The notes beneath the pieces are model-generated. The model was given only the letters and a program-made list of their open reading frames with translations, made no database searches and was not told the DNA's origin. Shown piece after piece: positions 22,573 to 37,228 of a stretch of DNA of 37,228 bases (positions within the stretch are counted from its first letter, which is position 1; every line of letters begins with the position of its first letter). Source of the stretch: Prevotella sp. (lineage in GTDB: Bacteria > Bacteroidota > Bacteroidia > Bacteroidales > Bacteroidaceae); contig JAFTAR010000143.1 of NCBI GenBank assembly GCA_017455495.1, forward strand, positions 1-37,228, in the 5' to 3' direction. Position numbers and translations under genes: made by a program.

Positions 22573-24975
22573 TTATCTTCTCTCGCGAGACTCTCTTTTC
22601 TCCTTCTGATAATCTGTTGGAGTCTGGCCTACCAGCTTCTTGAAGCACCTGCTGAAATACTTCGGGTCGGAAAATCCGCACCGGTAGGCTACGTCGGCCA
22701 CGTAGATGTTGGGCTGTCGCAGCAGCTGGCAGGCATGCTCTATGCGCTGGTTGAGGAGGTAGTTGCCGGGCGAAGTGCCGAAGACGCTCTTCATGCGGGC
22801 GAAGAGGACGGTGCGGCTCACGGCCATGTCGCGGGCCATGTCGGGGACTGAGAGGCCGGCATTAGAGAGGTTTTGCGCCACGTAGCTCTTGAGGCGGTCG
22901 GCGAATAGTCGGTCTTCCTCGTCTTCAATGGTCTCTGCCTCTACATCTACTGGTTCCACCGTCTGGCGTATGGACAGCAGTTCCTGCAGCTGAGCACCCA
23001 TCACACTGATGCGCTGCTGGCTTGTAAGCTTTATGTCCTTCAGCTCTTTCTGCATTCGGCGCACATAGCGCACGGTCTGGATAATGGCTATGATGAGCAG
23101 CGTTAGAAGCAGTCCGTAAAGCATCCAGGCGTAGGGGGTCTCGTGGAATGCTGCCCTGCGGTGTATGAACAGCACCCGCTCGTTGTCAGTCCAGACTCCG
23201 TCGCCGTTGGTTGAGCGGAGGTGAAGGAGGAAGGTTCCGGCTGGTATGTCGGGCAGGGTGAGCTGTGAGTCGGTGATGTAGGTCCACTCGTCGTTCATGC
23301 CCTCAATGCGGTAGGCGTAGGTGATGGGCATGCTTTTGTTGAAGTCGATGGCAGCAAAGCGTATGGTGAGCGAGCGCTCGCCGGGTGAGAGGGAAAGAGT
23401 GTCGGGGCAGTAGAACACTATGTCGGGCCTGTAGTTGCTCTTGCTGAAGTCGCCGGGCGCAATGTCAAGTACACCCTGTGTGGTGCCGAAGAGGTAGTGG
23501 CCGAGGGCAGTGCGCAGGGGTTTTGTCTCAAGTAGGTTGAAGTCCTGGCCGAGGGTGCCGCGTAGGGTGTTGGTGATGGTGTGATAGGGCAGTTGCATGC
23601 TGCTTATGGAGGCCCATGAGACAATGAAGAGCGTCTGTGAGAGGGAGTCGTAGAGCAGGCTCTGGCACACATCTGAGGCAAGGCCGTCGCGAGTGGTAAA
23701 GGTGCGGAAGGCTGTGTTGTCTGACAGCAGTTGGCGTGTGTCGGCCATGCAAAGCCCGCCTCCCGATGTTGCTATGGCCAGTGTGTCGCTGCCGAGTGGC
23801 TGCAGGTCGGTCACCCAGTCGTAGCTTAGCGACGTGTCGTCATCGGCTCTCCGGCAGTTGTGGTAAAAGTGCAATTGTGCCGGTGTGTCGCTAAGCTGAC
23901 AGCTGTACAGTCCGTTTAGGGTGCCTGCCACGAGTGTCTGCCCGGGCGTGATGTGCAGGCAGTGCATCTTGTTTGATGCTTCGTCGCGGGGCCATCCGGC
24001 GAGGTCGTTGCCGCTGTTATGGAACTGGTCGTTGTCGTGGCTCAGGTTGAGCATGTTGAGTCCGCCGCCGTATGTGGCTATCCATAGCCGCTGTTGGTTG
24101 TCCTCGCAGATGGCATAGACGTTGTCACAGCTAAGGCTGTATGGGTTGTTGCCGTCGTGCTGGTAGCGCTTCATGGTGAAGGCTCTGCCTCCTTCCGCGC
24201 TTCTCAACCGAACCAGGCCGCCGGGCTTGCATCCTAACCACATGTCGCCCCGGGAGTCCTCGAAGATGCAGTAGACCTTAAGCCCGAAAGCCACAGGCTG
24301 GCTTGACAGCTGTCCCTGTGGTGAAAGATAGTCCTCGTCTATGCGCACTATTCCGTTCTTGTCGGCCACCCATTTGCGCCCCTGGCGGTCGGCATAGATG
24401 GCGCGCACTTCTTGCCTTCCTCTGTTTGAGGCCTCCAGCGGGCGCCTTATCTGCCAGACGCGGTATAGTCCGCTGTGGGTGTCCACCCAGATGCCTCCCT
24501 GACGGTCGGTCAGCAATATGCGGGCGTTGTCGTCGCTGAGCTGTGGCAGCCCCTCTATGCGTTGCGCTATGGCTGGGGAGACGGAATACGGCCTTGGCCG
24601 CTGTGAATAGTCGGCGCTGATTTGCTCGAAGGTCTCTGTGCGCAGGTGGAACACTAACGTCATGCTGTCGGCCGTGGTGCACTCCAGGTCGCCGTCGGGC
24701 CTCTCCCTTACGGTGCCTATGCGGTTTGTGCGCAGGGGGCTGCTGTCGCCGGGCCTCATCTTGTAGGTCTTGAAGCGGTAGCCGTCGTATTGCACCAGAC
24801 CGTTCCAAGTGGCCAGCCACACAAAGCCACGGCTGTCCTGGATGGCATAGCTCACCACGCTCTGCTCGTAGCCCTCGGCCTCGCTGAAATGGGTCAGCCT
24901 AACCACGCTGTCGCCCTGGGCTTGCAGGGTGACAATATATAATAATAGGTAGAGGAAGGTTAACAATTGTCTCAT
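22573..24975 (-). CDS. Membrane-anchored sensor-regulator: two-component-type propeller and Y_Y_Y domain fused to AraC HTH, without kinase or receiver
   Basis: The 800-residue protein has a signal peptide (1-19) and a periplasmic beta-propeller of reg_prop repeats (about 25-520, e.g. DSRGFVWLATWNGLVQYDGY, DSRGDMWLGCKPGGLVR, DNQQRLWIATYGGGLNML). A Y_Y_Y domain follows (about 530-605, ending LHLRSTNGDGVWTDN), then one transmembrane helix (about 617-637), a short coiled-coil-like linker, and an AraC-type double HTH (about 705-795; LSVPDMARDMAVSRTVLFARMK and VADVAYRCGFSDPKYFSRCFKK). Hybrid two-component systems of Bacteroidota have a histidine kinase and a receiver between membrane and HTH; both are missing here, with no H-box or DD/K receiver motifs. 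It probably senses a periplasmic glycan fragment and acts on DNA while bound to the membrane. It is divergent from the pectinesterase and GH95 genes, its likely targets. Confidence 0.92.
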   Translation of the reverse strand: MRQLLTFLYLLLYIVTLQAQGDSVVRLTHFSEAEGYEQSVVSYAIQDSRGFVWLATWNGLVQYDGYRFKTYKMRPGDSSPLRTNRIGTVRERPDGDLECTTADSMTLVFHLRTETFEQISADYSQRPRPYSVSPAIAQRIEGLPQLSDDNARILLTDRQGGIWVDTHSGLYRVWQIRRPLEASNRGRQEVRAIYADRQGRKWVADKNGIVRIDEDYLSPQGQLSSQPVAFGLKVYCIFEDSRGDMWLGCKPGGLVRLRSAEGGRAFTMKRYQHDGNNPYSLSCDNVYAICEDNQQRLWIATYGGGLNMLNLSHDNDQFHNSGNDLAGWPRDEASNKMHCLHITPGQTLVAGTLNGLYSCQLSDTPAQLHFYHNCRRADDDTSLSYDWVTDLQPLGSDTLAIATSGGGLCMADTRQLLSDNTAFRTFTTRDGLASDVCQSLLYDSLSQTLFIVSWASISSMQLPYHTITNTLRGTLGQDFNLLETKPLRTALGHYLFGTTQGVLDIAPGDFSKSNYRPDIVFYCPDTLSLSPGERSLTIRFAAIDFNKSMPITYAYRIEGMNDEWTYITDSQLTLPDIPAGTFLLHLRSTNGDGVWTDNERVLFIHRRAAFHETPYAWMLYGLLLTLLIIAIIQTVRYVRRMQKELKDIKLTSQQRISVMGAQLQELLSIRQTVEPVDVEAETIEDEEDRLFADRLKSYVAQNLSNAGLSVPDMARDMAVSRTVLFARMKSVFGTSPGNYLLNQRIEHACQLLRQPNIYVADVAYRCGFSDPKYFSRCFKKLVGQTPTDYQKEKRESRERR

Positions 24976-24982
24976 ACGGGTG

Positions 24983-25013
24983 CAAATTTATACAAAAAGG
25001 ACGTAAGCAGCAA
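24983..25013 (-). promoter_or_regulatory. Promoter of the sensor-regulator gene, almost without leader
   Basis: On the minus strand TTG (25011-25013) and TAAATTTG (24983-24990) are separated by 20 bases, a good match to the -33/-7 spacing of Bacteroidota promoters. The -7 box ends only about 7 bases before the ATG at 24975, so the predicted transcript would have a leader of a few bases at most. Confidence 0.5.
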
Positions 25014-25076
25014 GCCTTTGGACGATTTTGCACCCTATTACGGCTTTTTTTTACCCCATTTTTTTCTTGTCGGGGC

Positions 25077-25084
25077 TAATTTTG
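25077..25084 (+). promoter_or_regulatory. Bacteroidota -7 box for the pectinesterase-GH95 operon
   Basis: TAATTTTG fits TAnnTTTG and lies 30 bp upstream of the ATG at 25115. The -33 region holds T-runs but no clear TTG at the right spacing, which would fit a promoter needing an activator such as the divergent AraC-type regulator. Confidence 0.5.
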
Positions 25085-25114
25085 CAGCCAAAATCCATAA
25101 ACAATACTGTCAAG

Positions 25115-28100
25115 ATGAAAAGAAACCAGCTATTCAGGACGGCCATCACCATCGTTGCGCTGATGGGGAGCATGGCCACCGCCAAGGCCGACCAGGTCAC
25201 TCTGGCCTCTTGGGACTTCTCGAACGACGTGAAGTACACCCAGACTTCTGCCGACGGGCAGAAGACGTACTACACGGCATCGGCTGAGTCGAAGGTGAAC
25301 ATGGAGTATGCCTTCTCTGCTCAGCAGCCATTCTTCTATCCTACCTCAGGAGCCGTTGCCAACAGCACGCTTACCATCTGGGCTGCCGATGGCACTAAGA
25401 AGTGGTATATCTCTAACTACAACAATGGTGCCCTGCGCATGTATACCGCATCGCCTCGCATCATAGACAACCCTACTGATGCCAGCCAGCACTACAACTA
25501 TGCCGAGGTGGAGCTGTCGGCCGAGGGCTATAAGAATCTGCAGTTTTCCTGCCGCATGTCGGGCAACAACAGCAGGACACTGCCAGTCTATGTGCTTGTG
25601 TCTACCGACGGCGGTAACACATGGCTCCCTTCCAGCATACAGAACACCACCGGCAGCAGCTGGAGCAACTTCAACGAGACTAAGGCTGCCCTTGCCGTTG
25701 ACGGTCGGCAGAATGTGAAGGTGCGCGCCTTGATAGGCTACGATGCAGCTGCCACAGGCGACATGTACATGAACAGCTTCAAGGTGACTGGTGAAACTCT
25801 TGGCAGCGAGGCTGTCAACACCCTGACCACTTCGGCCACGCCTGCCGGTGCCGGCTATGTGGCCATGTCGCCAGTGGGCGATGCTGCTGTCAGCGGTACA
25901 AGCATCACCTATACGGCCAGGAATATGTCGGGCTATAAGATAAAGGAGTGGCAGGACGGCAACTGCACCACGCTGGCAACCACGCCTGCATATACCACTA
26001 CCGTAAGCGGTCCGACGGCTGTCACTGCCGTGTTTGCCACTACTGAGACCTACACCCTTACTATCAACAAGGCCGGCGACGGTGCCAAGTGGGGCGAGGT
26101 GGTGATGTCGCCAGAACCCATCAACGGCAAGTATGATGACGGAACGGAGGTGACGCTGACTGTAGTCCCCAACAATGTGACCAACTTCCTGACATGGGAG
26201 ACCGGCAGCGCCGAGCTGAGCCGAGTCGTCACCGTAAACGGCAATACCGAGGTGACGGCCACTTTCGATGTCATACCTTTCATCGTGGCCTGGGACTTCA
26301 ACAACGACAAGAACTCTGCACGTGGCAACCGCGCTGCCGACTATGCTTTCTCTACCGACAACACGGGTGTGATGCTGTTCTACCAGGGCAGCAACTGCGC
26401 CAGCACCAACTGGGGCAGCGGCAAGGCCTCGTTTGGGGGCAAGGAGATGTGGGCTGCCCGCCGCTACACAGACTACAGCAAGAATGAGCAGATTCCCCGC
26501 GCCTTCGTGGCTTCGTTCAGCGTGAAGGACTATGACAAGATAAAGATTCACAGCTTTGTGGCTGCCAACAACAACTGCGTGCGCCAGCGCCAGTTGCTGC
26601 AGCTGAGCACCACAAGCGCTACTGAGGGCTTCACAACCCTGATGACGCTGACACTGCCGGACAACCCCAGCAGCGAGTGGCTCAACATGGACTATGAACT
26701 GGATACAAAGAACATAGACGGCATGGTCTACATTCGTTGGATTGAGGACGAGACGAGCGACTTCTTTGACGGTGGCAACCACTCGGGCACTGAGGGCTTC
26801 TACCTGGCCGATGTCATCATCTTCGCCGACCAGACAGCCATTGATGACACAGAGGCCCCGCAGCTCATCAGCAGTTCACCTGCCGATGGCAGCACCAGCG
26901 CCTCGGCCCGCGGCAACATCGTGCTTAGCTTCAACGAGCGCGTCAAGGCCGGCACTGGCAGTGTGGTCCTCAATGGTGAGGCCTTGATCGGCTCCTTCGG
27001 CAGCAAGAGCGTCACCTACGCCTACCACGGCCTGCAGTACGGTCAGCAGTACACTCTCAGCATCGGCGAGAACGCCATCACCGACCTTAGCGGCAACGCC
27101 TTCCCTGCCCGCGACATCACCTTCACGGTCATGGAGCGCCCGCTGCCCACGGCCAAGACCTTCGACGCAGTGGTGGCCAAGAGCGGCTTCACAGTGCCCG
27201 ATGGTTCTGCCATCGGGGTCTATGAGACCATCCAAGCTGCCATTGATGCCGCCCCGGCCAACCGCATAGCCCCCTGGCTCATCTTCGTCACCAATGGCGA
27301 GTACGAGGAACTGGTCACTATCCCGCAGAACAAGCCCTTCATCCACCTCATCGGCCAGGACAAGGAAAAGACCGTTATAAAGTACCTTATTAATAATGGT
27401 GGCTCCAACGACGTGGGCTATGAATACTCCACCAACAACCCCAGCTCGCTTACCTATGGCAAGCAGGCCGTGGTGCAGGTAAACGCCACCGACTTCTATA
27501 CAGAGAATATCACCTACCTGAACCGCTGGGGCGTGGAGCACCAGTCAGGCCCCATGGACCTCGCCATGAGCTCGCGTGCCGACCGTCAGGCCTTCAACAA
27601 CTGCCAGTTCCGCTCATATCAGGATACTTGGTACACCGACGTGCGCAATGCCAGCGACCGCCAGTATGTGAACAACTGCCTCATTGAAGGCGCAGTGGAC
27701 TTCTACTACGGCGCAGGCGATAACTACATTGAGAACAGCACCTTCCGTCTGGCCCGTGAGGGCAGCGTAATCGTGGCTCCCAGTCATCAGGCAGGCACAA
27801 AGTGGGGCTATGTCCTCGTGAACAACACCATTGACGGCAAGGGTGGCAGCAATAAGCTGGGACGCGCTTGGCAGAACCAGCCAATATCAGTCTGGATAAA
27901 TACTACGCTGAAGACTACCATAGCTCCTGAAGGCTGGAGCGAATGGCACATCGCACCGAAGCTTTTCGCAGAGTATAACACCATGGATGCCGACGGCCAG
28001 CCCGTTGACCTGAACAACCGCCGCACCACCTACAAGGTGGATGAGGACAAACTGGCTCAGGGCGAGACAAGCCCTGTCACCCGTCAGGCTGTGCTTAGTG

Positions 28101-28534
28101 CCGAGGAGGCTGCACGCTACACCTACGAGGCTGTGACAGCCGGCACCGACGACTGGAACCCGCGCAAGTTCTTTGAGACTGTTGAGGCTCCTGCCAATGT
28201 GGCTTATGCCGATGGCAAGATTACGTGGAGCGCCTCACAGTATGCCATCTGCTATCTCGTCATCAATGCCGACTCTCAGGTCGTTGCCATAACCAAGGAT
28301 ACTGAGTATGCCACCGCCGTAGCAGGCAGCTACACTATTTGCTCGGTCAATGAGTACGGAAGCCTGGGCCAGACTACTACCTTCGAAGTTACAAACGACA
28401 TGGCCACAGGAATCAGGGTAATTACTCCCCAGCCTGTATACGACTCTAATGTCTACAACCTCAACGGCCAGCCTGTAAGCACGGCCACAAGGGGCGTATA
28501 TATTGTGAATGGAAAGAAAATGTTAGTTAAGTAG
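25115..28534 (+). CDS. Multidomain pectinesterase (CE8), secreted
   Basis: CE8 enzymes remove methyl esters from homogalacturonan. The ATG at 25115 gives a proper signal peptide (MKRNQLFRTAITIVALMG, ending ATAKA) and 1139 residues; an upstream in-frame ATG at 25028 overlaps the promoter. In order: a beta-rich module (about 25-225), repeat modules of the InlB B-type (about 234-385), a second beta-sandwich module (about 388-575), an SbsA/Big_5 Ig-like domain (577-675, with SSSPADGS) and the CE8 beta-helix (about 679-1000). Catalytic residues are visible: D837 in QDTW, D862 in GAVDFYYG, R917 in LGRAW. The C-terminus (YNLNGQPV, then GVYIVNGKKMLVK) resembles type IX secretion tails. GH95 follows after 10 bp, so both probably share one transcript under the divergent regulator. 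Confidence 0.93.
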   Translation: MKRNQLFRTAITIVALMGSMATAKADQVTLASWDFSNDVKYTQTSADGQKTYYTASAESKVNMEYAFSAQQPFFYPTSGAVANSTLTIWAADGTKKWYISNYNNGALRMYTASPRIIDNPTDASQHYNYAEVELSAEGYKNLQFSCRMSGNNSRTLPVYVLVSTDGGNTWLPSSIQNTTGSSWSNFNETKAALAVDGRQNVKVRALIGYDAAATGDMYMNSFKVTGETLGSEAVNTLTTSATPAGAGYVAMSPVGDAAVSGTSITYTARNMSGYKIKEWQDGNCTTLATTPAYTTTVSGPTAVTAVFATTETYTLTINKAGDGAKWGEVVMSPEPINGKYDDGTEVTLTVVPNNVTNFLTWETGSAELSRVVTVNGNTEVTATFDVIPFIVAWDFNNDKNSARGNRAADYAFSTDNTGVMLFYQGSNCASTNWGSGKASFGGKEMWAARRYTDYSKNEQIPRAFVASFSVKDYDKIKIHSFVAANNNCVRQRQLLQLSTTSATEGFTTLMTLTLPDNPSSEWLNMDYELDTKNIDGMVYIRWIEDETSDFFDGGNHSGTEGFYLADVIIFADQTAIDDTEAPQLISSSPADGSTSASARGNIVLSFNERVKAGTGSVVLNGEALIGSFGSKSVTYAYHGLQYGQQYTLSIGENAITDLSGNAFPARDITFTVMERPLPTAKTFDAVVAKSGFTVPDGSAIGVYETIQAAIDAAPANRIAPWLIFVTNGEYEELVTIPQNKPFIHLIGQDKEKTVIKYLINNGGSNDVGYEYSTNNPSSLTYGKQAVVQVNATDFYTENITYLNRWGVEHQSGPMDLAMSSRADRQAFNNCQFRSYQDTWYTDVRNASDRQYVNNCLIEGAVDFYYGAGDNYIENSTFRLAREGSVIVAPSHQAGTKWGYVLVNNTIDGKGGSNKLGRAWQNQPISVWINTTLKTTIAPEGWSEWHIAPKLFAEYNTMDADGQPVDLNNRRTTYKVDEDKLAQGETSPVTRQAVLSAEEAARYTYEAVTAGTDDWNPRKFFETVEAPANVAYADGKITWSASQYAICYLVINADSQVVAITKDTEYATAVAGSYTICSVNEYGSLGQTTTFEVTNDMATGIRVITPQPVYDSNVYNLNGQPVSTATRGVYIVNGKKMLVK

Positions 28535-28543
28535 AAGTAATAG

Positions 28544-31500
28544 ATGTTAAAGAAAAGAACGACGATGAAGGCAATGCTGGCAGTGCTGGCATTCCTTCTG
28601 AGCTCCAACAGTGCCATGGCCGATCAAACGGCTGTGGCACATTGGGAGTTCACTACCGGCTATGACGTAGAGAAACAAGGCACCACGGCCATCTATACCC
28701 CAAACAACTTAGGGTGGTCGCAGATAGCCAACACTAAGTGGAGTACACTGCAGCCCTACTTCCTGCCCAACGAGTGCGCGCTGATGCCGGAGCAGTGCCG
28801 GGTAACGGTGCACACCAGCGACGGCAAGTGGCAGGTGACCAGCAGCGGCTCGGCACCCAACTACCTGCTGCGCCTGAACACGGCCTCTATAGATAAGTTC
28901 ACCGCCAAGGCTGACTATACCGACGGCTCGAAACACGACCAGTACTTCGAGGTGCAGATGCCTACTACGGCACTTAACAACATCAAGCTGAACTTCGCCA
29001 TCGGCGACGGCTCCAGCTCTGCCACAAAGTTTGGCTTGGTCTATTCCACCGATGGCGGCCAGACGTGGACTGTGCTCAGCGACTACACATCCGGCTCCCA
29101 CTGGAACACCTATGTTGATGCCAACTACGACCTGCAGGCCGACGACAAGGAGCTGCTCATAGTGCGAATGCTGATTCAGTCGGCCACGAAGACCAGCAAC
29201 TACAACTTGAAATACCTGAACATCCTGGCTGAGGACACTAAAGCCCCCGTGCTCGTCAGCAGTATGCCTGCCGACGGTGCTACTGGCGTGTTGCCCACGG
29301 GCAAGGTCACGCTGCTGTTCAACGAGGGCGTGAAAGTGGCCACAGCTTCAGCCGCAGTTCCCGCTGCATCTCCAGTGGGCACTCTCACCAACAGCACCAC
29401 CGGTCAGTCACAGACCATCGCCCCCGTAGTGAATATCAATAAGGTGTCGTTCCCCTATGCCGACCTTGACCTCACCACGACTTATACCCTCACCTTGCCT
29501 GCCAACTCGCTGGCCGACCTGGCTGGCAATTTGCTGAATGAAGCCATCACCATAACATTCACCACTGGCGACACGCGCCCCGTGCCACCCCCTGTGCTTG
29601 ACAGCTACAACCGCCTGTGGTATCACCGCCCCGCCCAATACTGGGAGGAGGCACTGCCTCTGGGCAACGGAAGGCTGGGCGCTATGGTGAGCGGCTCGGT
29701 AGCCAAGGATACGCTGCAGCTTAACGAAGACACCTTCTGGGGGCAGTCGCCCAACCGCAATCATAATGCCAACGCCCGCGCGGTGTTGCAGCAGGTACAG
29801 CAGTATATCTTCAACCGCGACTATGCTGCCGGGCAGAGACTGGCCATTCCCAACTGGATGTCGCAAGGCTCGCACGGTGCGCAGTATCAGGCTGCCGGCT
29901 GCGTGCTCGTGGGCTTCCCCGGCCACCGCTTCGACGATGAAGAACCCGGCTTCACTGCCTCAAATAGTGCGGTCGGCGGTTTTGCCGCCGATGCCCAGGG
30001 CTACGTCCGCTCCCTTGACATGAACAACGCCACCGCCATCACCACCTATATCATTGACGGCGTTACCTACACCCGCACCGTCTTCACCTCCTTCGAGGAC
30101 AATGTGACCATAATGCGCATAGAAGCCTCCGAGCCGGGAAAGCTGAACTTCAACGTGTGCTATGCTGCACCCAGCAAGACCAACATGGAGAAGCTTGGCG
30201 TGAACAAGATTACGGCCGACGGCATGATTGAGGCTTCGCTTATTCCCGCCCGCGAAATGACCGAGAACGTGCCCAACAAGCTGCAGTGCTATACCTTCAT
30301 CAAGGTCATCAACGATGGCGGCACTCAGCGCAGCGTGCTCAGCGGTTATTCCGTTGAGACCCGCGGCATCGTGGCCGGACAGACGCAGGTGCCCACCATT
30401 GAGGTCAGCGAGGCCACGTCGGCCACCATCGTCATCTCTTCAGCTACCAACTTTGTCAACTACGACGACATCAGTGCCAATGGTGAGGCGAAGGCCCTCA
30501 ATTATATGACCACCTACCTAAACAAGAACAAGGACTACGAGACCACGCACTCCGACCACGCCGCCCGCTATCAGGAGCAGTTTGGCCGCGTCAGCCTTGA
30601 CCTTGGCAGCAATGCCGAGCAGGAGCAGAAGGACACCGAGACGCGCATCAGGGAGTTCCGCTCGCAGGGCGGCAACGACCCAGGCCTGGTGGCCAACTAC
30701 TTCCAGTTTGGCCGCTACTTGCTCATCTCCTCCTCGCAGCCCGGCACACAGCCGGCCAACCTGCAGGGCATCTGGAACCCCAACTCCCGCCAATATCCTG
30801 CCTGGGACTCGAAATACACCAGCAACATCAATGTTGAGATGAACTACTGGCCGGCCGAGGTGTGCAACCTGGCCGAGTGCCACATGCCCTTCGTTGACAT
30901 GGTGAGGGATGTAAGCGTAACTGGTGCCGAGACGGCGCAGGCTATGTACGGCGCACGCGGCTGGACGCTGCACCACAACACCGACCTGTGGAGAACCACC
31001 GGTGCCGTGGACAATGGCTCCGTAGGAGTGTGGCCAACGTGCAACGCATGGTTCTGCTCGCATCTCTGGGAAAAGTATCTCTTCTCCGGCGACAAGCAGT
31101 ATCTGGCCGACATCTACCCCGTGCTGAAGGGCTGTGCACAGTTCTTCCAGGACTTCCTCGTCCGCGATCCCAATACGGGCTACATGGTGGTGTGTCCCTC
31201 CAACTCGCCTGAGAACCATCCCGGCATTGGCTCTTATACCGATGACAACGGCAAGCAGATGAACTGCGCCCTCTTTGGTGGCGTGGCCATGGACAACCAG
31301 ATGGTCTACGACGTGCTGAAGAACACCGCCGAGGCCGCCCGCATCTTAAGTGCCGAGGCCGCAGTGACCGATGGTTCTCCATCGGTCTATAACGAGTCGG
31401 CCTTCGCCGACGAGCTTGATGCCCTTCGCGCCCAGCTTACTCCCTACATGATTGGCAAGTACGGCCAGGTGCAGGAGTGGCAGGAAGACTGGGACCGCGA

Positions 31501-32374
31501 GAACAACAGCCATCGCCATCTGTCGCACATCTGGGGAGCCTATCCCGGCAACCAGGTTTCGCCCTATACCAATGCCACTATCTACCAGGGCGTGCACAAG
31601 TCGCTTGTGGGCCGTGGCGATGCCGCCCGAGGCTGGAGCATGGGCTGGAAGGTGTGCCTCTGGGCACGCATGCTTGACGGCGACCATGCCCTCAACATTA
31701 TAAAGAACCAGCTGCGTCTTATGGACCCCAACGCCACTATGAGCGATGCCGACGGCGGCACCTATGCAAATATGTTCGACGCCCACGCCCCGTTCCAGAT
31801 AGACGGCAACTTTGGCTGCTGTGCCGGCATTGCCGAGATGCTCGTTCAGAGCCACGCCGGCTTCGTCCACCTGCTGCCCGCCCTGCCTTCTGCATGGGCC
31901 GACGGCGAGGTGAAAGGACTGCGCACCCGTGGCGGCTTTGAAATCACCGACATGCAGTGGCGCGACGGTAAGGTGGTGATGCTGCGGGTGAAGTCTACCA
32001 TTGGCGGCAACCTGCGCCTGCGCTCGGCATCAGAGCTGAAAATGGCCGACGGAACGGCCCTGCAGCCTGCCGCAGGCGACAACAGCAACCCGCTGACGCA
32101 GCCCTACATCATGCCCGATCCAATAGTGGTCAACCCCTCGAAGATTCCTGCCACCACGCTGCCGCAGACCTTCGTCTACGACATTCCCACCACGGCTGGC
32201 CAGGAGATAGAGCTTATAGACCTCAATGGTTTCACCGGCATAGAGACAATCCAAAACCATGACCAGCACCAAGCTGCTGGTCATGGGGTGGCCTACTCTG
32301 TCGACGGCTTGCGGGTGAACGACTCCTACCGCGGCATCACTATTATCAATGGCAACAAGTACATGAACAGGTAA
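28544..32374 (+). CDS. GH95 family alpha-L-fucosidase/alpha-L-galactosidase, secreted
   Basis: GH95 enzymes release terminal alpha-L-fucose or alpha-L-galactose from glycans. The 1276-residue protein has a signal peptide (an ATG at 28565 is an equally good start), an N-terminal beta-rich module (about 27-230) related to that of the pectinesterase, a Big_5 domain (about 231-345) and the GH95 domain (about 355-1190, starting LWYHRPAQYWEEALPLGNGRLGAM). By comparison with AfcA of Bifidobacterium, the catalytic set is intact: N761 and N763 (TSNINVEMNYW), E890 (SPENHPG) and D1087 (QIDGNFG). A Thr occupies the place of the His found two residues before the first Asn in AfcA. The tail (YSVDGLRV, GITIINGNKYMNR) is type IX-like. 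With CE8 and GH43 neighbours, a pectin side-chain substrate is more likely than host glycans (inference). Confidence 0.93.
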   Translation: MLKKRTTMKAMLAVLAFLLSSNSAMADQTAVAHWEFTTGYDVEKQGTTAIYTPNNLGWSQIANTKWSTLQPYFLPNECALMPEQCRVTVHTSDGKWQVTSSGSAPNYLLRLNTASIDKFTAKADYTDGSKHDQYFEVQMPTTALNNIKLNFAIGDGSSSATKFGLVYSTDGGQTWTVLSDYTSGSHWNTYVDANYDLQADDKELLIVRMLIQSATKTSNYNLKYLNILAEDTKAPVLVSSMPADGATGVLPTGKVTLLFNEGVKVATASAAVPAASPVGTLTNSTTGQSQTIAPVVNINKVSFPYADLDLTTTYTLTLPANSLADLAGNLLNEAITITFTTGDTRPVPPPVLDSYNRLWYHRPAQYWEEALPLGNGRLGAMVSGSVAKDTLQLNEDTFWGQSPNRNHNANARAVLQQVQQYIFNRDYAAGQRLAIPNWMSQGSHGAQYQAAGCVLVGFPGHRFDDEEPGFTASNSAVGGFAADAQGYVRSLDMNNATAITTYIIDGVTYTRTVFTSFEDNVTIMRIEASEPGKLNFNVCYAAPSKTNMEKLGVNKITADGMIEASLIPAREMTENVPNKLQCYTFIKVINDGGTQRSVLSGYSVETRGIVAGQTQVPTIEVSEATSATIVISSATNFVNYDDISANGEAKALNYMTTYLNKNKDYETTHSDHAARYQEQFGRVSLDLGSNAEQEQKDTETRIREFRSQGGNDPGLVANYFQFGRYLLISSSQPGTQPANLQGIWNPNSRQYPAWDSKYTSNINVEMNYWPAEVCNLAECHMPFVDMVRDVSVTGAETAQAMYGARGWTLHHNTDLWRTTGAVDNGSVGVWPTCNAWFCSHLWEKYLFSGDKQYLADIYPVLKGCAQFFQDFLVRDPNTGYMVVCPSNSPENHPGIGSYTDDNGKQMNCALFGGVAMDNQMVYDVLKNTAEAARILSAEAAVTDGSPSVYNESAFADELDALRAQLTPYMIGKYGQVQEWQEDWDRENNSHRHLSHIWGAYPGNQVSPYTNATIYQGVHKSLVGRGDAARGWSMGWKVCLWARMLDGDHALNIIKNQLRLMDPNATMSDADGGTYANMFDAHAPFQIDGNFGCCAGIAEMLVQSHAGFVHLLPALPSAWADGEVKGLRTRGGFEITDMQWRDGKVVMLRVKSTIGGNLRLRSASELKMADGTALQPAAGDNSNPLTQPYIMPDPIVVNPSKIPATTLPQTFVYDIPTTAGQEIELIDLNGFTGIETIQNHDQHQAAGHGVAYSVDGLRVNDSYRGITIINGNKYMNR

Positions 32375-32413
32375 ACACACCTATCGCCTCTTCTGCTCCG
32401 CAAGACTTTTCTC

Positions 32414-33988
32414 TTACTTCTTAATGTCGTAGTTGAAGTTGCGGAACATGGCCTTGCCGCCTGGAGTCCCTTCCCTGTTGTAGCAGTAGAGGCCCGTGCG
32501 CGAACCTTTCCAGTAGCCCATGCGGAGGGAGAAAGGCAGGCCCGCAGGGGTGAAGTGGCGGCCGTCATCACTTGTGTAGAACTGGTGCGCGTTGTTCTCG
32601 CTGTCTATGCTTACACGCAGGCTAACGGTGCTTCTGCGGCAAGGGCTGAGCACGGTGAAACGGCCGCCATCCTCTACATAGTAGTAGTTCCTGCCCATCT
32701 GGCGGCACACTCCCACAGCCATGAAGCGCTTGCCCATGCAGAGCAGGCCGGCATGGTCGCCCTCCTTCAGTTGCGAGCAGTCAATGGTGGTCGTCGCCTC
32801 GCTGCTGTAGCCCACTGTCTTTTGGGTCAGCATGTTCCGGCAGGCCTTTAGACTGTCGGCCGGCAGGGCATGGAGCGTCAGGTAGCCTTTGCGCTCGCCC
32901 ATGCTCCAGGCCGAGTCAACAGGGTTGTGGCACCACTGCCACTGCGGGGCCAGCGGGCGGCGGTGCTGTCCCGCCCAGTAGAGCGTGTCTGAGGTGAAGT
33001 CGCCAGAGAACACCGTGGTGCATGGTGACGCTTCTGCCATTGGGCTTGTCCACACCGCCACTGGCTCTCCGATGCCGTTGCCGTCAATGTCTACTCCTAT
33101 CAGTGGCCATCCGTCGTGCCAGCGGGCAGGCTGCATGTGAACCACCCTGCCGCGGGGATGGGTCTCCTGGAAATGCAGGAACCACCACGTGCCGTCGGGG
33201 GTGTCAACGAGTGCTCCCTGGTGCGGGCCGTTCACGTCGGTGCTGCCCTGTTCCAGCACCACGCGCTTCTCGTAGGGACCATAGATGCTGCGCGAGCGAA
33301 GCACTGTCTGCCAGCCGCAGCACACGCCGCCCTCGGGAATCACCAAGTAGTAGTAGCCGTCGCGCTTCATTATCTTTGTGCCCTCAGCCACAGGACCGGT
33401 GTACACCGTGACGCCGTCGTCAAGGAGTTGCTTTCCGTCGGCCGACATACGGTGGATGATGATAGGCCCGGCACCATACTGGCTGCGGCCAAGATATGCC
33501 TGTCCGTCCCCGTCCCAGAAAGGGCAGGGGTCCTCCCACTTCTCTACCTGCTTCACACAATGCAGGGGCGACCAAGGGCCGCTGGCATTGCTGGCGGTAG
33601 ACATGAACAGCCCCTCGTCGGGAGTGCAGAAATAAACGTAGAAAAGGCCGTCATGAAAGCGTATGGCCGGGGCCCACGAGCCACCGCCATAGTGGGCATT
33701 ACTGTCCCAACCGGGATAGTCAAGACGGTCGAACACCTGGCTCACCACCTGCCAGTTCACAAGGTCGGAAGACTTCAGCACCTGCATACCCATGAAGTGG
33801 AAGTCGGAGGCCACCATATAGTAGCTGTCGCCCACGCGGATTACGTCAGGGTCGCTATAGTCGGCATTTAGCACAGGGTTCTTGTAGGTGTCGTTACCCT
33901 GGTCGCCCCAGGCAAACGGAGCCTGTGCCTGGAGAGCTGCAATATTCATGACGGCAGCCACGACTGTTATCAGTATCTTTACTTTCAT
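32414..33988 (-). CDS. GH43 family glycoside hydrolase with C-terminal beta-sandwich
   Basis: GH43 enzymes are mainly arabinofuranosidases and xylosidases acting on arabinan or xylan side chains. The 524-residue protein has a signal peptide (about 1-22) and a five-bladed propeller with the three acidic residues expected: base D46 in YSDPDVIRV, pKa modulator D153 in WEDPCPFWDGDG, and acid E202 in GPVAEGTKI. The second half (about 320-524) looks like the concanavalin-type sandwich that often follows GH43 propellers (FTSDTLYWAGQHRRPLAPQWQW, SSEATTTIDCSQLKEGDHAGLLCM). The subfamily cannot be decided by eye. It is convergent with the GH95 gene (40-bp gap) and has its own promoter box upstream, so it belongs to the same pectin-type cluster but not to the same transcript. 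Confidence 0.92.
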   Translation of the reverse strand: MKVKILITVVAAVMNIAALQAQAPFAWGDQGNDTYKNPVLNADYSDPDVIRVGDSYYMVASDFHFMGMQVLKSSDLVNWQVVSQVFDRLDYPGWDSNAHYGGGSWAPAIRFHDGLFYVYFCTPDEGLFMSTASNASGPWSPLHCVKQVEKWEDPCPFWDGDGQAYLGRSQYGAGPIIIHRMSADGKQLLDDGVTVYTGPVAEGTKIMKRDGYYYLVIPEGGVCCGWQTVLRSRSIYGPYEKRVVLEQGSTDVNGPHQGALVDTPDGTWWFLHFQETHPRGRVVHMQPARWHDGWPLIGVDIDGNGIGEPVAVWTSPMAEASPCTTVFSGDFTSDTLYWAGQHRRPLAPQWQWCHNPVDSAWSMGERKGYLTLHALPADSLKACRNMLTQKTVGYSSEATTTIDCSQLKEGDHAGLLCMGKRFMAVGVCRQMGRNYYYVEDGGRFTVLSPCRRSTVSLRVSIDSENNAHQFYTSDDGRHFTPAGLPFSLRMGYWKGSRTGLYCYNREGTPGGKAMFRNFNYDIKK

Positions 33989-34044
33989 CTTAGATGTTTG
34001 TTTTTAGGTTCTATCTACTGACGGCTCTCAGTTCTAATTTGCCA

Positions 34045-34052
34045 CAAAAGTA
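34045..34052 (-). promoter_or_regulatory. Bacteroidota -7 box for the GH43 gene
   Basis: The minus strand reads TACTTTTG (TAnnTTTG) about 57 bp upstream of the ATG at 33988. A TTG lies 17 bases further upstream, slightly closer than usual. The inverted-repeat unit starts only 50 bp beyond it. Confidence 0.5.
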
Positions 34053-34102
34053 CAAAAATAGGTTGTAAACAAGGCATCTGTAGTGAAAAAAAATTCGACA
34101 AC

Positions 34103-34184
34103 AGGTTGTCAGGTTGTCAAAACGCCGTGTGGCAAAGGGTTTGCAACCTGTTGGAGGTTGTCAGAGGTTGACAGAGGTTGTCAG
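34103..34184 (+). repeat. Left 82-bp inverted repeat of the helicase unit
   Basis: This arm matches the reverse complement of 36548-36629 at 80 of 82 positions. The outer end has two AGGTTGTC motifs in tandem, the middle is a unique block (ACGCCGTGTGGCAAAGGG), and the inner end has three GAGGTTG(T/A)CA motifs with a 10-bp period. Confidence 0.9.
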
Positions 34185-34213
34185 AGTGGCAGATGACAAA
34201 ATGGCAAGCCGTG

Positions 34214-34325
34214 CGAACGTAGAGCTGAACTCTGTCAGCGTAAGGGGAAACTCTGCAAACGTAAGGGGAAACTCTGCAAACGTAGGGGGGAACTCTGCAA
34301 ACGTAGGGGGGAACTCTGCAAACGT
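34214..34325 (+). repeat. 21-bp tandem repeat array (five units plus a partial), iteron-like
   Basis: Units begin at 34214, 34235, 34256, 34277 and 34298, with a seven-base sixth start at 34319. The consensus is about CAAACGTAAGGGGAAACTCTG; unit 1 is the most diverged, and units 4 and 5 are identical. Spacing is exactly two helical turns, the usual size of replication iterons, and the array lies just upstream of the helicase gene. The surrounding 34186-34484 holds no gene I can support: both strands are open because the 21-bp unit is a multiple of three. Confidence 0.75.
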
Positions 34326-34484
34326 AAAGCAGTGCCTTATGCTTGAATTCTTGAGAGAATTGAAACAAAAGGCAGGTCTCTATGAAAAAATGGATGAGCG
34401 CTGCCGTTGTGTGCCAATGCTTGGCAGACGGAGATTGGCATGAGGTTTGCTGCAAGGATAATGTTTAACTAAAAATCGATAAGA

Positions 34485-36551
34485 ATGGAATACAAAGACA
34501 AACTTTTGATGGATTATTTCTATCGCAGTGAGTGGCGCCAGAAGGGTGTTACCCTCAGCGAGGTCTACGACTGGACGCTCAACGGCAAGTACCGGCACAG
34601 GGTGGATGCCGTGAGGGGCATAGACGAGATTGCCGTGCCCGGAGGCATGGAGAATGGCCCTATGGCCGCTGAGAGGCTGCCGAGGGTGAGGCCTGCCTCA
34701 AACGAGAAGGGCGGCTGCACGGGTCTGGTGCTGCTGTCGTTCCGCATAGAGGACGGGTTGGGCGTGCTGAAACGTCTGCGCCAGGTGGTGAACCTGTGGG
34801 AGCAGACACTGATGTCGTTCATGGGCTGTAGCGGACAGTCGCTGAAGGTGCTCATTCCCTATCGCCTCGTGGGCGGTGGGCTCCCTAAGGACGAGGGGCA
34901 GGTGGCGCTGTTCCGCCAGTATGCCTACAGGCGTGCCGCTGCCTACGCGCAGAACGCTACTGGCATCAAGCCCGAGGAGGTGGCCCACGACGGAACGGAG
35001 TTCTTCCACATATCCTTCGACCCTATGGCATACTACAACCCCGATGCCAAGGCCATAGAGATGAAGCAGCCAACAGAGCCGCTGACAGAGCTGACAGCCC
35101 CCGTGGTGAGCCGCCCGGCAGAGCCTGCTCTCGACACCACACTGCTGCCCGGCTACACCCGCCGCGAGATGGACACCACGAAATACAACTTCATCTGCCG
35201 CGACCTGTCGTTCGACAAGAAGGCGGATCACGAGGAGTACCTGATGAAGCTGGCCGCCAGCTGCTGCCAGGCCGGCATAGACCTGGAGCTGGCTATTAAA
35301 CTCACCCTGTGGCAGAGCGATTTCTATGGCAAGGACGCGCTGGTGAGGTCAGCCTTCTCAAACGCCTACGCAAAGCACCGTCTGGGCATGGCGAACCCCC
35401 TGGAGAAGTCGCTTATGCACCAGCACCTGCTTGAGGAGTTCCTGCGCCGCCGCTACATGTTCCGCCGCAACAGGGTGACTGGCGACCTGGAGTATCAGGA
35501 GAAGCACCGTTACGAGATGTGGTGGAAGCCGCTTACAGAGGAGGCCCTGAACGACATAAACAGCGAGGCCATAAGCGAGGGTATAAAGGTGTGGCCCAAG
35601 GACCTGAACCGCATACTCATATCGGAGCGCACCGACGAGTACGACCCCGTGCGCGAATGGCTTGACGGCCTGCCTGCGTGGGACGGGCGCGACCGCCTGG
35701 GCGAGATGGCCGACCGCGTGAGCACAAAGGCCCCCGGCTGGCGCGACAATTTCAAGATATGGATGCGCTCCATGGTGAGCCAGTGGCGCAGCGGCCGCGA
35801 CGCCATGTACGGGGCGCAGATGGTGTTGATGCTGGTGGGCGACCAGGGTACGCGCAAGTCTACCTTCATGCGCATGCTGCTGCCACGCGAGTTGACGGCA
35901 TTCTACATCGACCGCATAGACTTTGCCAACAAGAAGGAGGCCCTAAGGGCGCTGAGCCGCTTCCTGCTAATAAACATTGACGAGTACGACCAGGTGAGCA
36001 AGGCGCAGACGGCATTCCTGAAGCACCTCATACAGCGCACCGACGTGAAGGAGCGCAAACTCTACAGCACCACCTTCGAGCAGCAGCAGCGCTATGCCGC
36101 CTTCTGTGCCACCACCAACTCGCTGACACCGCTGCGCGACGACACCGGCTCGCGACGCTACATGGTGGTGGAGCTCACAGCCCCGATAGACACCGACGTG
36201 CAGGGCGGGAAGGCCATTGACTACCGGCAGCTCTACGCCCAGATAGTGTATGAGATAGAGCACGGCGAGGAGTATGCCTTCACCGGCGAGCGCGAACGCA
36301 GCATCATTGAGCACAACAGCGACTACAGCGAGACGCCCGGCGTGGTGGCACTCTTCGAAGACCGCTACCGCAAGCCTAAACCCGGCGACAACGTGCTGCT
36401 GCTCAGCCCCACGGAGATACTGACCAGGCTGAAGGCAGACCCGGCAAACCGCGCCAACGTAACCCGGCTGGGGGCCTTCCTGCACCGGCAGCAATACAAG
36501 AGGGGCGACGGCAACGACCGCAGGCGCTACAAGGTTGCTGAACGGGGCTGA
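34485..36551 (+). CDS. VirE/BT4734-type protein: primase-like N-terminus and AAA+ helicase domain
   Basis: The 688-residue cytosolic protein looks like the 'virulence-associated E' family common in Bacteroidota genomes, phages and plasmids. An N-terminal BT4734-like domain spans about residues 30-195 (AVRGIDEIAVPGGMENGP, LVLLSFRIED, HDGTEFFHISFDPMAYYNP). A helical PriCT-like middle follows (about 235-330). The VirE ATPase domain (about 390-640) has Walker A GDQGTRKST (452-460), Walker B FLLINIDEYD (about 493-502), sensor-1-like CATTNS and the arginine GSRRYMVVEL. The family is thought to unwind or prime DNA in replication of mobile elements. Here it is the only large gene between 82-bp inverted repeats, with a 21-bp array upstream. 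No partner replication or mobilisation gene is visible. Codon use is GC-rich, like the neighbours. Confidence 0.88.
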   Translation: MEYKDKLLMDYFYRSEWRQKGVTLSEVYDWTLNGKYRHRVDAVRGIDEIAVPGGMENGPMAAERLPRVRPASNEKGGCTGLVLLSFRIEDGLGVLKRLRQVVNLWEQTLMSFMGCSGQSLKVLIPYRLVGGGLPKDEGQVALFRQYAYRRAAAYAQNATGIKPEEVAHDGTEFFHISFDPMAYYNPDAKAIEMKQPTEPLTELTAPVVSRPAEPALDTTLLPGYTRREMDTTKYNFICRDLSFDKKADHEEYLMKLAASCCQAGIDLELAIKLTLWQSDFYGKDALVRSAFSNAYAKHRLGMANPLEKSLMHQHLLEEFLRRRYMFRRNRVTGDLEYQEKHRYEMWWKPLTEEALNDINSEAISEGIKVWPKDLNRILISERTDEYDPVREWLDGLPAWDGRDRLGEMADRVSTKAPGWRDNFKIWMRSMVSQWRSGRDAMYGAQMVLMLVGDQGTRKSTFMRMLLPRELTAFYIDRIDFANKKEALRALSRFLLINIDEYDQVSKAQTAFLKHLIQRTDVKERKLYSTTFEQQQRYAAFCATTNSLTPLRDDTGSRRYMVVELTAPIDTDVQGGKAIDYRQLYAQIVYEIEHGEEYAFTGERERSIIEHNSDYSETPGVVALFEDRYRKPKPGDNVLLLSPTEILTRLKADPANRANVTRLGAFLHRQQYKRGDGNDRRRYKVAERG

Positions 36552-36629
36552 CAACCTCTGTCAACCTCTGACAACCTCAAACAGGTTGCAAACCCTTTGC
36601 CACACGGCGTTTTGTCAACCTGACAACCT
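36548..36629 (-). repeat. Right 82-bp inverted repeat of the helicase unit
   Basis: This is the reverse-complement partner of 34103-34184, with two mismatches. It begins one base before the helicase TGA stop, so the gene ends exactly where the repeat begins. A transcript through the unit would fold back on itself over 80 bp. Confidence 0.9.
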
Positions 36630-36664
36630 AATATGAAAATAATTATGGATTACGCCTCATCTCA

Positions 36665-37228
36665 TTATCTCATTCTCCAAATCACGTTTCTTCCTACTCC
36701 CGTCAGCCGCTCCAACTGCCGCAGGGATGCACCCTTTTCACGCAGTTCCAAGAGCACCGTCCGCTGCCGTCCGTATGACAGGTTCATGAACATTACCTTG
36801 CCGCAGTCACCAACAAGCGCCTTTATTCCTTCCTGCACCTGCTTGTCCGACAGCCGGACGCTGGCCTTCCTCGGAGCCAGACACTTCACGCCCTTTTCCA
36901 ATGGCTTGCTCAGCATCTCCTCCACCTTTGCGCTGTCCTCCTGCCGGTACTTTTCCTTCACCTCACACAGCGCAGGCAACTCCCGGCCCTTGTGAACATA
37001 CTCATACCAGCTGCTGTAGGTCGGTTCGTTCAGGTCCGTCACCTTCCCTTCGCGCAGCGTAGTCTGGTGGATATACCGCACGACGGTGTCAAACCTCTCC
37101 GCAGTCTCCACCGGCTCGCTCGCGAATCGCCCGCGGTAGATAGCCCCGTCGCGGTCGTACTTTCCGTTGAAGTACACCGCATACGACGAGGCGATTCGCC
37201 TCACGAGGTTGCTCACCGTCTCCTCGCC
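36665..37228 (-). CDS. REP-associated tyrosine transposase (RAYT, IS200/Y1-like), C-terminal part, runs off the window
   Basis: The frame is open from the window edge to a TAA at 36665-36667, giving 188 residues that lack the N-terminus (the HUH motif would lie outside). Family features are SSYAVYFNGKYDRDGAIYRG followed by RFASEPVE, VVRYIHQT, and the YSSWYEY box, which match the Y1 transposase domain of RAYTs (RYIHxNP and WSSYxxY in relatives). The C-terminal part (about 120-188) adds a helical DNA-binding tail ending LRQLERLTGVGRNVIWRMR, which looks like a helix-turn-helix. RAYTs cut and move REP palindromes in single-stranded DNA. REP-like arms are present at 17270-17397, but none is visible in the 35 bp between this gene and the inverted-repeat unit. 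Confidence is high for the family, lower for activity. Confidence 0.85.
   Translation of the reverse strand, partial: GEETVSNLVRRIASSYAVYFNGKYDRDGAIYRGRFASEPVETAERFDTVVRYIHQTTLREGKVTDLNEPTYSSWYEYVHKGRELPALCEVKEKYRQEDSAKVEEMLSKPLEKGVKCLAPRKASVRLSDKQVQEGIKALVGDCGKVMFMNLSYGRQRTVLLELREKGASLRQLERLTGVGRNVIWRMR

Follow-up and report, generated by a model that had tools for sequence, protein, structure and literature searches.

The window analysed here is a stretch of 37,228 nucleotides of Prevotella sp. DNA (contig JAFTAR010000143.1 of assembly GCA_017455495.1), and between its positions 34103 and 36629 a gene for a VapE-type helicase is enclosed by two long inverted repeats, referred to below as arms. 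We put the probability at about 60% that this unit is one full copy of an inverted-repeat-bounded, transposon-like family of Prevotella and its relatives, a REPtron-like system with a helicase, in which the BT4734/VapE-type gene is the only recognisable core gene. The reading is carried by an architecture that stays the same (left arm, then an inner palindrome or array, the gene and the right arm, often with an HU-like gene behind it), by arms that co-evolve, by a conserved hairpin, by a gene under purifying selection, and by dispersed gene-less units with matching arms.

Architecture of the unit

The two 82-bp arms lie at 34103..34184 on the forward strand and, as an inverted copy, at 36548..36629 on the reverse strand; they are 98% complementary and 2363 nt apart. 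They enclose a tandem array at 34228..34327 (forward strand; period 21, 4.8 copies, 92% matches) and a single open reading frame (34485..36551, forward strand), which encodes a 688-aa protein with a BT4734-like N domain and a VapE/VirE AAA+ helicase domain, and whose stop codon falls within the first 4 bases of the right arm. An earlier interpretation made from the letters without database searches, here called the sequence-only reading, had described the 82-bp inverted arms, the 21-bp array and a single gene that ends at the right arm, and all of these were confirmed. Beyond that description, the arms are themselves iterated and hairpin-bearing and recur in the genome, and a RAYT-like gene lies 35 bp off the right arm.

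The left arm consists of direct AGGTTG(T/A)C-type repeats with one inverted copy. Its hairpin (34111..34149, forward strand) has a stem formed by AGGTTG at 34111-34116 and CAACCT at 34144-34149 and an asymmetric tip; the DNA fold has a z value of -3.4, compared with -3.2 for the right arm, and the stem pairs are preserved by compensatory changes in relatives (84-arm alignment). Tandem-repeat analysis places 3.3 copies of an inner 10-bp iterated repeat, GAGGTTGTCA, at 34154..34186 (forward strand), and an inner palindrome, GAATTCTTGAGAGAATT, is recognised by eye at 34345..34361 (forward strand). Motifs of the form AATTCTC..GAGAATT were likewise seen by eye in many of the gene-less units and clade elements viewed. 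No Rfam family matched the region 33900-37228 up to an E value of 1, and a small open reading frame over the array (34114-34443) is regarded as a chance frame because the array units differ between copies.

The same plan in other genomes

The arm of the window is matched at an E value of 1e-6 in 16 of 398 genomes of the genus. Named public genomes were scanned with a ten-protein alignment and the best 80 of 175 relatives were kept; ten clade loci of the genus sample correspond to ten named-genome loci and were counted once. At each locus the region before the gene was aligned to the reverse complement of the region after it, which left 75 scorable loci after five that are cut by contig ends were excluded (L156, L165, L176, L181 and L205). 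At L161 the VapE gene is disrupted, with 533 aa in one frame followed by a second frame, and this locus was used by position only.

Inverted repeats with a score of at least 41 surround the gene in 45 of the 46 scorable loci whose protein is at least 42% identical to that of the window, while shuffled left regions (n=75) score at most 29 against their own right regions. The unit measures 2.3-2.6 kb in 44 of these 45 loci and 2.9 kb in L175, and the exception, L153, has kept its left arm and only 12 nt of the right one. Below 38% identity, inverted repeats were found at one locus of 29, L184 (Bacteroides sp. GM023). The family thus has the terminal inverted repeats that define DNA transposons, and the compact helicase-gene unit proposed by the sequence-only reading does recur, since the same kind of gene stands between arms at other loci and in other genomes. 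Among the findings that would count against it, that reading had named arms present only at this site and related genomes that carry the gene at the same locus without the arms; the six further inverted pairs in the genome of the window and the 45 of 46 loci above speak otherwise on both.

Co-evolving arms and a conserved hairpin

In the main group, the arm reads from outside to inside as a T-rich stretch, two direct AGGTTG-type hexamers, an inverted copy that closes the hairpin, and about three more direct copies. A run of at least four T within 3-22 nt outside the arm is found in 58 of 82 arms, compared with 20 of 246 control 20-mers. The hexamer itself varies by element (AGGTTG, AGGGTG, AGACTG or ACGCTG), and by eye its change is mostly concerted across the copies of both arms, with some mixtures, as in L136; L158, L175 and L177 have arms of other sequence. 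When the left and right arms of the same element were compared (47 pairs, three loci excluded), the median score was 128, as against 34 for the arms of other elements, and an element's own partner ranked first of 47 in 29 cases and third or better in 40.

The sequence-only reading had also suggested that the arms may fold into hairpins, which gains substance from the alignment of 84 arms (80 distinct). Pairs hold in 91.4% of its stem cells, compared with 77.8% in shuffles, and the covariation score is 0.327; shuffled alignments give 0.110, none of 500 reaching the observed value, and sliding the stem yields no more than 0.078. The close relatives G254 and G327 have 25 arm sites between them, and both orders of the asymmetric hairpin tip are seen there: 9 sites show one order, 6 the other and 10 neither. 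At one site shared by the two genomes (L211/L217) the tip differs, and at the other shared sites it is the same. Taken alone, the L211/L217 tip matches at 8 positions when flipped and at 4 when direct, and over 26 bases the direct identity is 19 and the inverted 18, so that flipping of the hairpin tip is only suggestive from these alignments.

Gene-less units and their resident elements

A search of the genome of the window (G000) with one arm returned 24 matches at E values up to 10, many of them short. Besides the pair in the window, it contains six gene-less inverted arm pairs of 102-430 bp. Two of them, C143:32699-33128 and C63:169-596, hold a 21-bp array with a unit sequence of its own (by eye); the others are C121:10082-10457, C143:56254-56532, C51:739-1036 and the short pair C210:9539-9640. 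In addition, C122 carries one good arm and a remnant, and C161, C93 and C8 carry fragments. An inner palindrome of the AATTCTC..GAGAATT form is kept in several of these gene-less units (by eye). Short units that share the same inverted ends, lack a gene and occur in several copies, the hallmark of a miniature inverted-repeat transposable element (MITE), are found both here and in G130, and inverted, hairpin-forming doublets dispersed between genes, as in REPINs, are present as well.

The gene-less units resemble the resident full element. G254 has 13 arm sites and G327 has 12, each count including both arms of one full element (L155 in G327 and, probably, L156 in G254). Four gene-less units of these two genomes were compared with the left region of L155 and are 80-85% identical to it over 164-190 bases, spanning bases 1-173 or more of that region and extending past the arm. 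Among ten genomes searched with an AGACTG-type arm, G130, which holds an AGACTG full element, was the only one found to have gene-less units of this type, namely two inverted pairs and a lone arm; G075 has an AGACTG full element alone, and weaker matches to the AGACTG arm in G136, G163 and G186 carry AGGTTG repeats and no AGACTG.

Other repeats were noticed as well. A separate repeat of about 256 bp adjoins arm units in G254 and G327 (L213, L218, L221 and L233), and in the window's own genome two further VapE genes, L026 (G000:C52) and L027 (G000:C205), have inverted-repeat structures of another kind in their vicinity, built of GTACAC and TGATAGA units.

The VapE-type protein

Pfam recognises a BT4734-like N-terminal domain (1.2e-14) and a VapE-like domain (2.6e-32) in the 688-aa protein, the former placing it by sequence family (PF08800) among the BT4734-like archaeo-eukaryotic primases. 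A PrimPol model also matches, with a score far below the model's cut-off, and PADLOC, consulted on the question of defence, returned a CRISPR-associated PrimPol model at 3.7e-12 together with two weak matches. Residues 383-635 match the structure chain 7pds_A, named as similar to D. nodosus vapE, at 6e-06. Among 55 aligned relatives, G452, Q454, G455 and K458, D499 and E500, T543 and N545, and R557 and R558 are invariant, which are the Walker A, Walker B, sensor and arginine residues, respectively. The two primase motifs as defined in the available part of PMC5862659, motif I (hhhDhD/E) and motif II (sxH), fare differently: D.D/E stands at the expected place in none of the 55 aligned proteins and motif II is found in only 3 of them, and the N domain therefore probably does not function as a primase. 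The same source predicts that ATPases of the VirE family serve as helicases in the replication of mobile elements (PMC5862659).

In six chosen pairs of elements, dN/dS (the ratio of nonsynonymous to synonymous substitution rates) lies between 0.06 and 0.29, the dS of the window pair being near saturation, and therefore the gene is under purifying selection. No recombinase domain was recognised in the unit, a transposase or other recombinase being the mark of a DNA transposon, and neither an integrase nor a DNA polymerase was recognised in it.

BT4734/VapE genes are frequent in the genus (100 of 150 genomes contain a protein match at 1e-20), and relatives named BT4734/BF3469 occur on Bacteroidales plasmid records. 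The clade of the window is another matter. The 21 loci on viral records are all at most 31% identical to the protein, and matches on plasmid (53) and phage (366) records all stay below 60%, the best among the matches listed reaching 32-36% over most of the protein. A viral or plasmid origin, or a status as phage or plasmid satellite, is thus unsupported, as the clade was not found on viral, plasmid or phage records.

The HU-like gene and the right end

Beyond the right arm, 41 of the 52 loci examined, a set that includes L180 and the window, carry an HU-like gene; L161 is counted despite the broken gene that shifts the distance, and L165 and L174, which are scored as lacking the gene, have too little sequence on the right to judge. 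All three HU-like proteins scanned match Pfam HU-HIG. The near-identical cassettes L134/L135 (96%) and L164/L170 (95%) have 2.9 kb in common, from outside the left arm to the HU-like gene, where similarity is lost; no terminal repeat was found on that gene. In L164/L170, similarity stops inside the HU-like frame and the stop codons differ, and on the left the shared region reaches 79 bp past the arm and looks promoter-like by eye. L141, which has no HU-like gene, resembles L134 only as far as the right arm's outer end, and the unit in the window is of this shorter, arm-to-arm form. Two forms therefore exist, one of 2.5 kb from arm to arm and one of 2.9 kb with the HU-like gene, and because this gene follows in most loci and is shared by near-identical cassettes, the arm-to-arm form may be the minimal rather than the usual unit.

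The sequence-only reading had also asked whether the arms belong to a larger known element. By eye, the unit appears to be surrounded by ordinary chromosomal genes at the eleven loci viewed, on which ground a larger element containing the arms was rejected; on the other side stand the frequent HU-like gene and the distant relatives in G024, which lie in larger repeated stretches of about 4.5-5 kb.

The flanks of the near-identical cassettes, as fetched, gave no other match at 1e-10 (those of L164 being short). Between the genomes of L164 and L170, two ordinary stretches show 78 and 83% identity, compared with 95% in the element, and this higher identity hints at transfer. By eye, a stretch is common to the right flank of L134 and the left flank of L135, and many copies of it exist in both genomes. 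Both flanks of L164 and of L170 carry copies of a repeat like CAGGTACCAGGTCCCTGACA (by eye), which could be a shared target or another repeat family.

Proposed mechanism

The VapE-type protein, alone or with the HU-like protein, most likely identifies the arms of its own element and sets off a replicative process at these sites. The protein, perhaps together with the HU-like protein, would bind the iterated AGGTTG-type repeats and the hairpins of both arms, open them and load the host replication machinery. New copies could then arise by a replicative single-strand or hairpin route, with cutting and joining left to host enzymes, and gene-less units would be copied in trans.

A more specific and distinctly tentative version sees here a class of transposons without any transposase, in which a primase-like/AAA+ helicase would start hairpin-type replication at two telomere-like arms of iterons and hairpins, and host enzymes would join the copies. 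Hairpin-type replication at terminal repeats is the manner of parvoviruses, and the hint for this version comes from the hairpin tip that occurs in both orders among the arm sites of G254 and G327.

Evidence on mobility and points that weigh against the family reading

The repeated units show dispersal within genomes. Movement is inferred, because neither a clean empty site nor a target duplication was found, and that the element moves itself is held with moderate confidence. The precise boundaries that the sequence-only reading had hoped to obtain from empty sites did not emerge from the comparison of G254 with G327, from the near-identical pairs or from 45 relatives of G000. Between G254 and G327, L213 and L222 are each absent at the matching place, where other sequence differs too. 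In the 45 relatives of G000, the flanks of the units of that genome were not found together, the matches being mostly 68-83% identical; for the C210 and C51 units both flanks were matched, on different contigs. L167, L168 and L169 share flanks around the cassette, and therefore the elements can also stay in place.

Several observations weigh against the reading as a self-spreading family. Besides the missing clean empty sites, no target duplication was seen by eye in the flanks viewed, where the exact outer ends are uncertain, and the right end is ambiguous between the arm and the HU-like gene. The near-identical pair L140/L161 lies in one variable region and not at two loci. As far as seen, no genome holds more than one full element per arm type, so that multiplication of the gene-bearing form lies beyond what these elements show. 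The clade gene was not found in five of the nine genomes that have window-type arms and are in the protein sample (G001, G022, G064, G139 and G173; completeness 54-81%), and only one arm was detected around each gene-less site in G254 and G327. The concert of the arms is only relative, because the arms of different elements also resemble each other: mismatched locus pairs (n=295) have a median score of 22, a 95th percentile of 91 and a maximum of 159. Finally, in single-strand DNA folding, three of six valid arms clearly beat their shuffles and the other three do not.

Alternative explanations

The best-surviving alternative, which we consider rather improbable, has the arms serve as an origin of replication or as an autoregulatory site for a VapE-HU cassette of the chromosome. 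This cassette would spread by ordinary horizontal transfer and recombination, and the gene-less units would be decayed or regulatory copies and no products of transposition. The common flanks of L167, L168 and L169, the promoter-like 79 bp beyond the arm in L164/L170 and the loss of similarity at the HU-like gene fit it, as does the predicted part of VirE-family ATPases in mobile-element replication (PMC5862659, available in part). Against it, the six inverted pairs without the gene in the window's genome, and the dozen or so arm sites of other genomes, call for a process of dispersal, and two long inverted arms around the gene exceed the needs of one operator.

An unlikely explanation is that the arms are REPIN-like repeats moved in trans by a RAYT, a Y1 transposase of the IS200 type, with the VapE gene as a passenger between two of them. 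The RAYT-like gene next to the unit (36665..37216, reverse strand; C-terminal part, running off the contig and taken as outside the unit) speaks for this enzyme; its NCBIfam match is weak (16.9 bits, compared with a cut-off of 80) and no Pfam family matches it. Y1 enzymes are not known to leave a target duplication, and the arms carry hairpins. Furthermore, the tnpAREP genes of subclass 2.6 of Bacteroidetes are described, in the accessible portion of PMC6006769, with flanking atypical secondary structures that have copies elsewhere in the genome. As a general partner, however, RAYT was rejected. The other three RAYT copies in the genome have no arm nearby in the available sequence, of which little lies upstream, and a 183-aa RAYT fragment found no homologue at E 0.001 in six of eight arm-bearing genomes (81-97% complete), a result that covers one RAYT family queried with a C-terminal fragment and not the other Y1 families. 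In addition, a gene between inverted repeats in 45 of 46 loci is unexpected for a passenger. The neighbouring RAYT-like gene is thus probably not the partner, and its position here is taken as chance, within the limits set by incomplete assemblies. The gene exists in four similar copies (36665-37216 in the window and C3:6299, C130:1 and C6:4 in G000), the others being 90-97% identical to that of the window and at least three being cut by contig ends; next to the C3 copy comes a different repeat, which contains AAAGGGACTGC motifs. This number of copies is at odds with the description of RAYTs as single-copy genes (PMC3116915).

Least probable is a conventional non-autonomous MITE-like unit moved by an unrelated insertion sequence (IS) transposase of the host, for which BrickBuilt of Porphyromonas gingivalis, a MITE with a 23-nt minisatellite and IS5-family-like ends (PMC4596501, available in part), offers a precedent, but the arms here are long and iterated, no duplication was seen, and the inverted repeats track one VapE clade.

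Surroundings of the unit and more distant loci

The left neighbour of the unit is a GH43 gene, and the region 22573-33988 of the window encodes GH43, GH95 with an Ig-like domain, a pectinesterase and a regulator with Reg_prop, Y_Y_Y and AraC-type domains. At L112 (G136:C20) an apparent tyrosine recombinase gene adjoins the element, and both are flanked by a pair of SusC-like genes whose starts are near-identical (by eye), an arrangement reminiscent of a shuffling locus.

Among the distant relatives, the single-contig genome G024 carries on C1 four VapE genes that are about 95% identical in DNA (L092-L095). Three of them lie within a shared stretch of 5.1 kb, and the fourth shares 4.5 kb in two pieces; the repeated stretches also hold an apparent T7-type primase-helicase gene and a zinc-finger open reading frame (by eye). 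Another distant VapE gene of this genome (29%; L097, G024:C1:2232695-2240509) is accompanied by a GTGGAGG-rich, 133-bp inverted repeat of 78% identity and by an array of about 21 bp (by eye), possibly the same plan in another sequence.

Comparison with known systems

To our knowledge, no role has been shown for BT4734/VapE genes. If one of their clades is indeed the resident gene of a family of dispersed inverted repeats, these genes would gain a function and a set of intergenic Prevotella repeats would be explained. The spread of a DNA element by replication proteins alone would also become testable, and the family would live as REPtrons do by a second, unrelated means.

The open-licence literature, to which the search was confined to the exclusion of subscription papers and preprints, gave no prior description resembling the element among the matches listed. 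The BT4734/BF3469 proteins with a VapE/VirE AAA+ domain (PF08800, PF05272) have the same domains as the protein of the window, but at 28 of the 29 loci below 38% identity the inverted-repeat score does not rise above that of shuffles. Self-synthesising transposons such as casposons also carry a replication-type gene between terminal inverted repeats, whereas neither a polymerase nor an integrase was recognised in the unit of the window.

The closest known systems, by analogy, are BrickBuilt in form and the REPtron/REPIN, with its one resident gene and many short palindromic dependants, in behaviour. Like the present unit, BrickBuilt is found in Bacteroidota, lies between genes and has inverted ends on either side of a minisatellite (23 nt, compared with 21 bp here), but its ends are short and IS5-family-like, and no helicase partner is described for it in the available part of the source (PMC4596501). 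The REPtron and REPIN-RAYT systems, as far as the accessible parts of the sources go, share with this family one resident gene per repeat type beside the repeats, a repeat sequence proper to each gene, and inverted hairpin-forming doublets dispersed between genes (PMC3116915, PMC6006769). By the same partial accounts, the resident gene there is a Y1 transposase and not a VapE-type AAA+ protein, and REPs measure 20-40 bp, in contrast to arms of 80-100 bp with iterated units. A resident RAYT gene flanked by the repeats, which defines a REPtron, was not found here, a search with the RAYT fragment of the window having given no homologue in six of eight arm-bearing genomes. With no recombinase recognised and no Y1 partner found, the element lacks a defining feature of transposons as well as of REPtrons.

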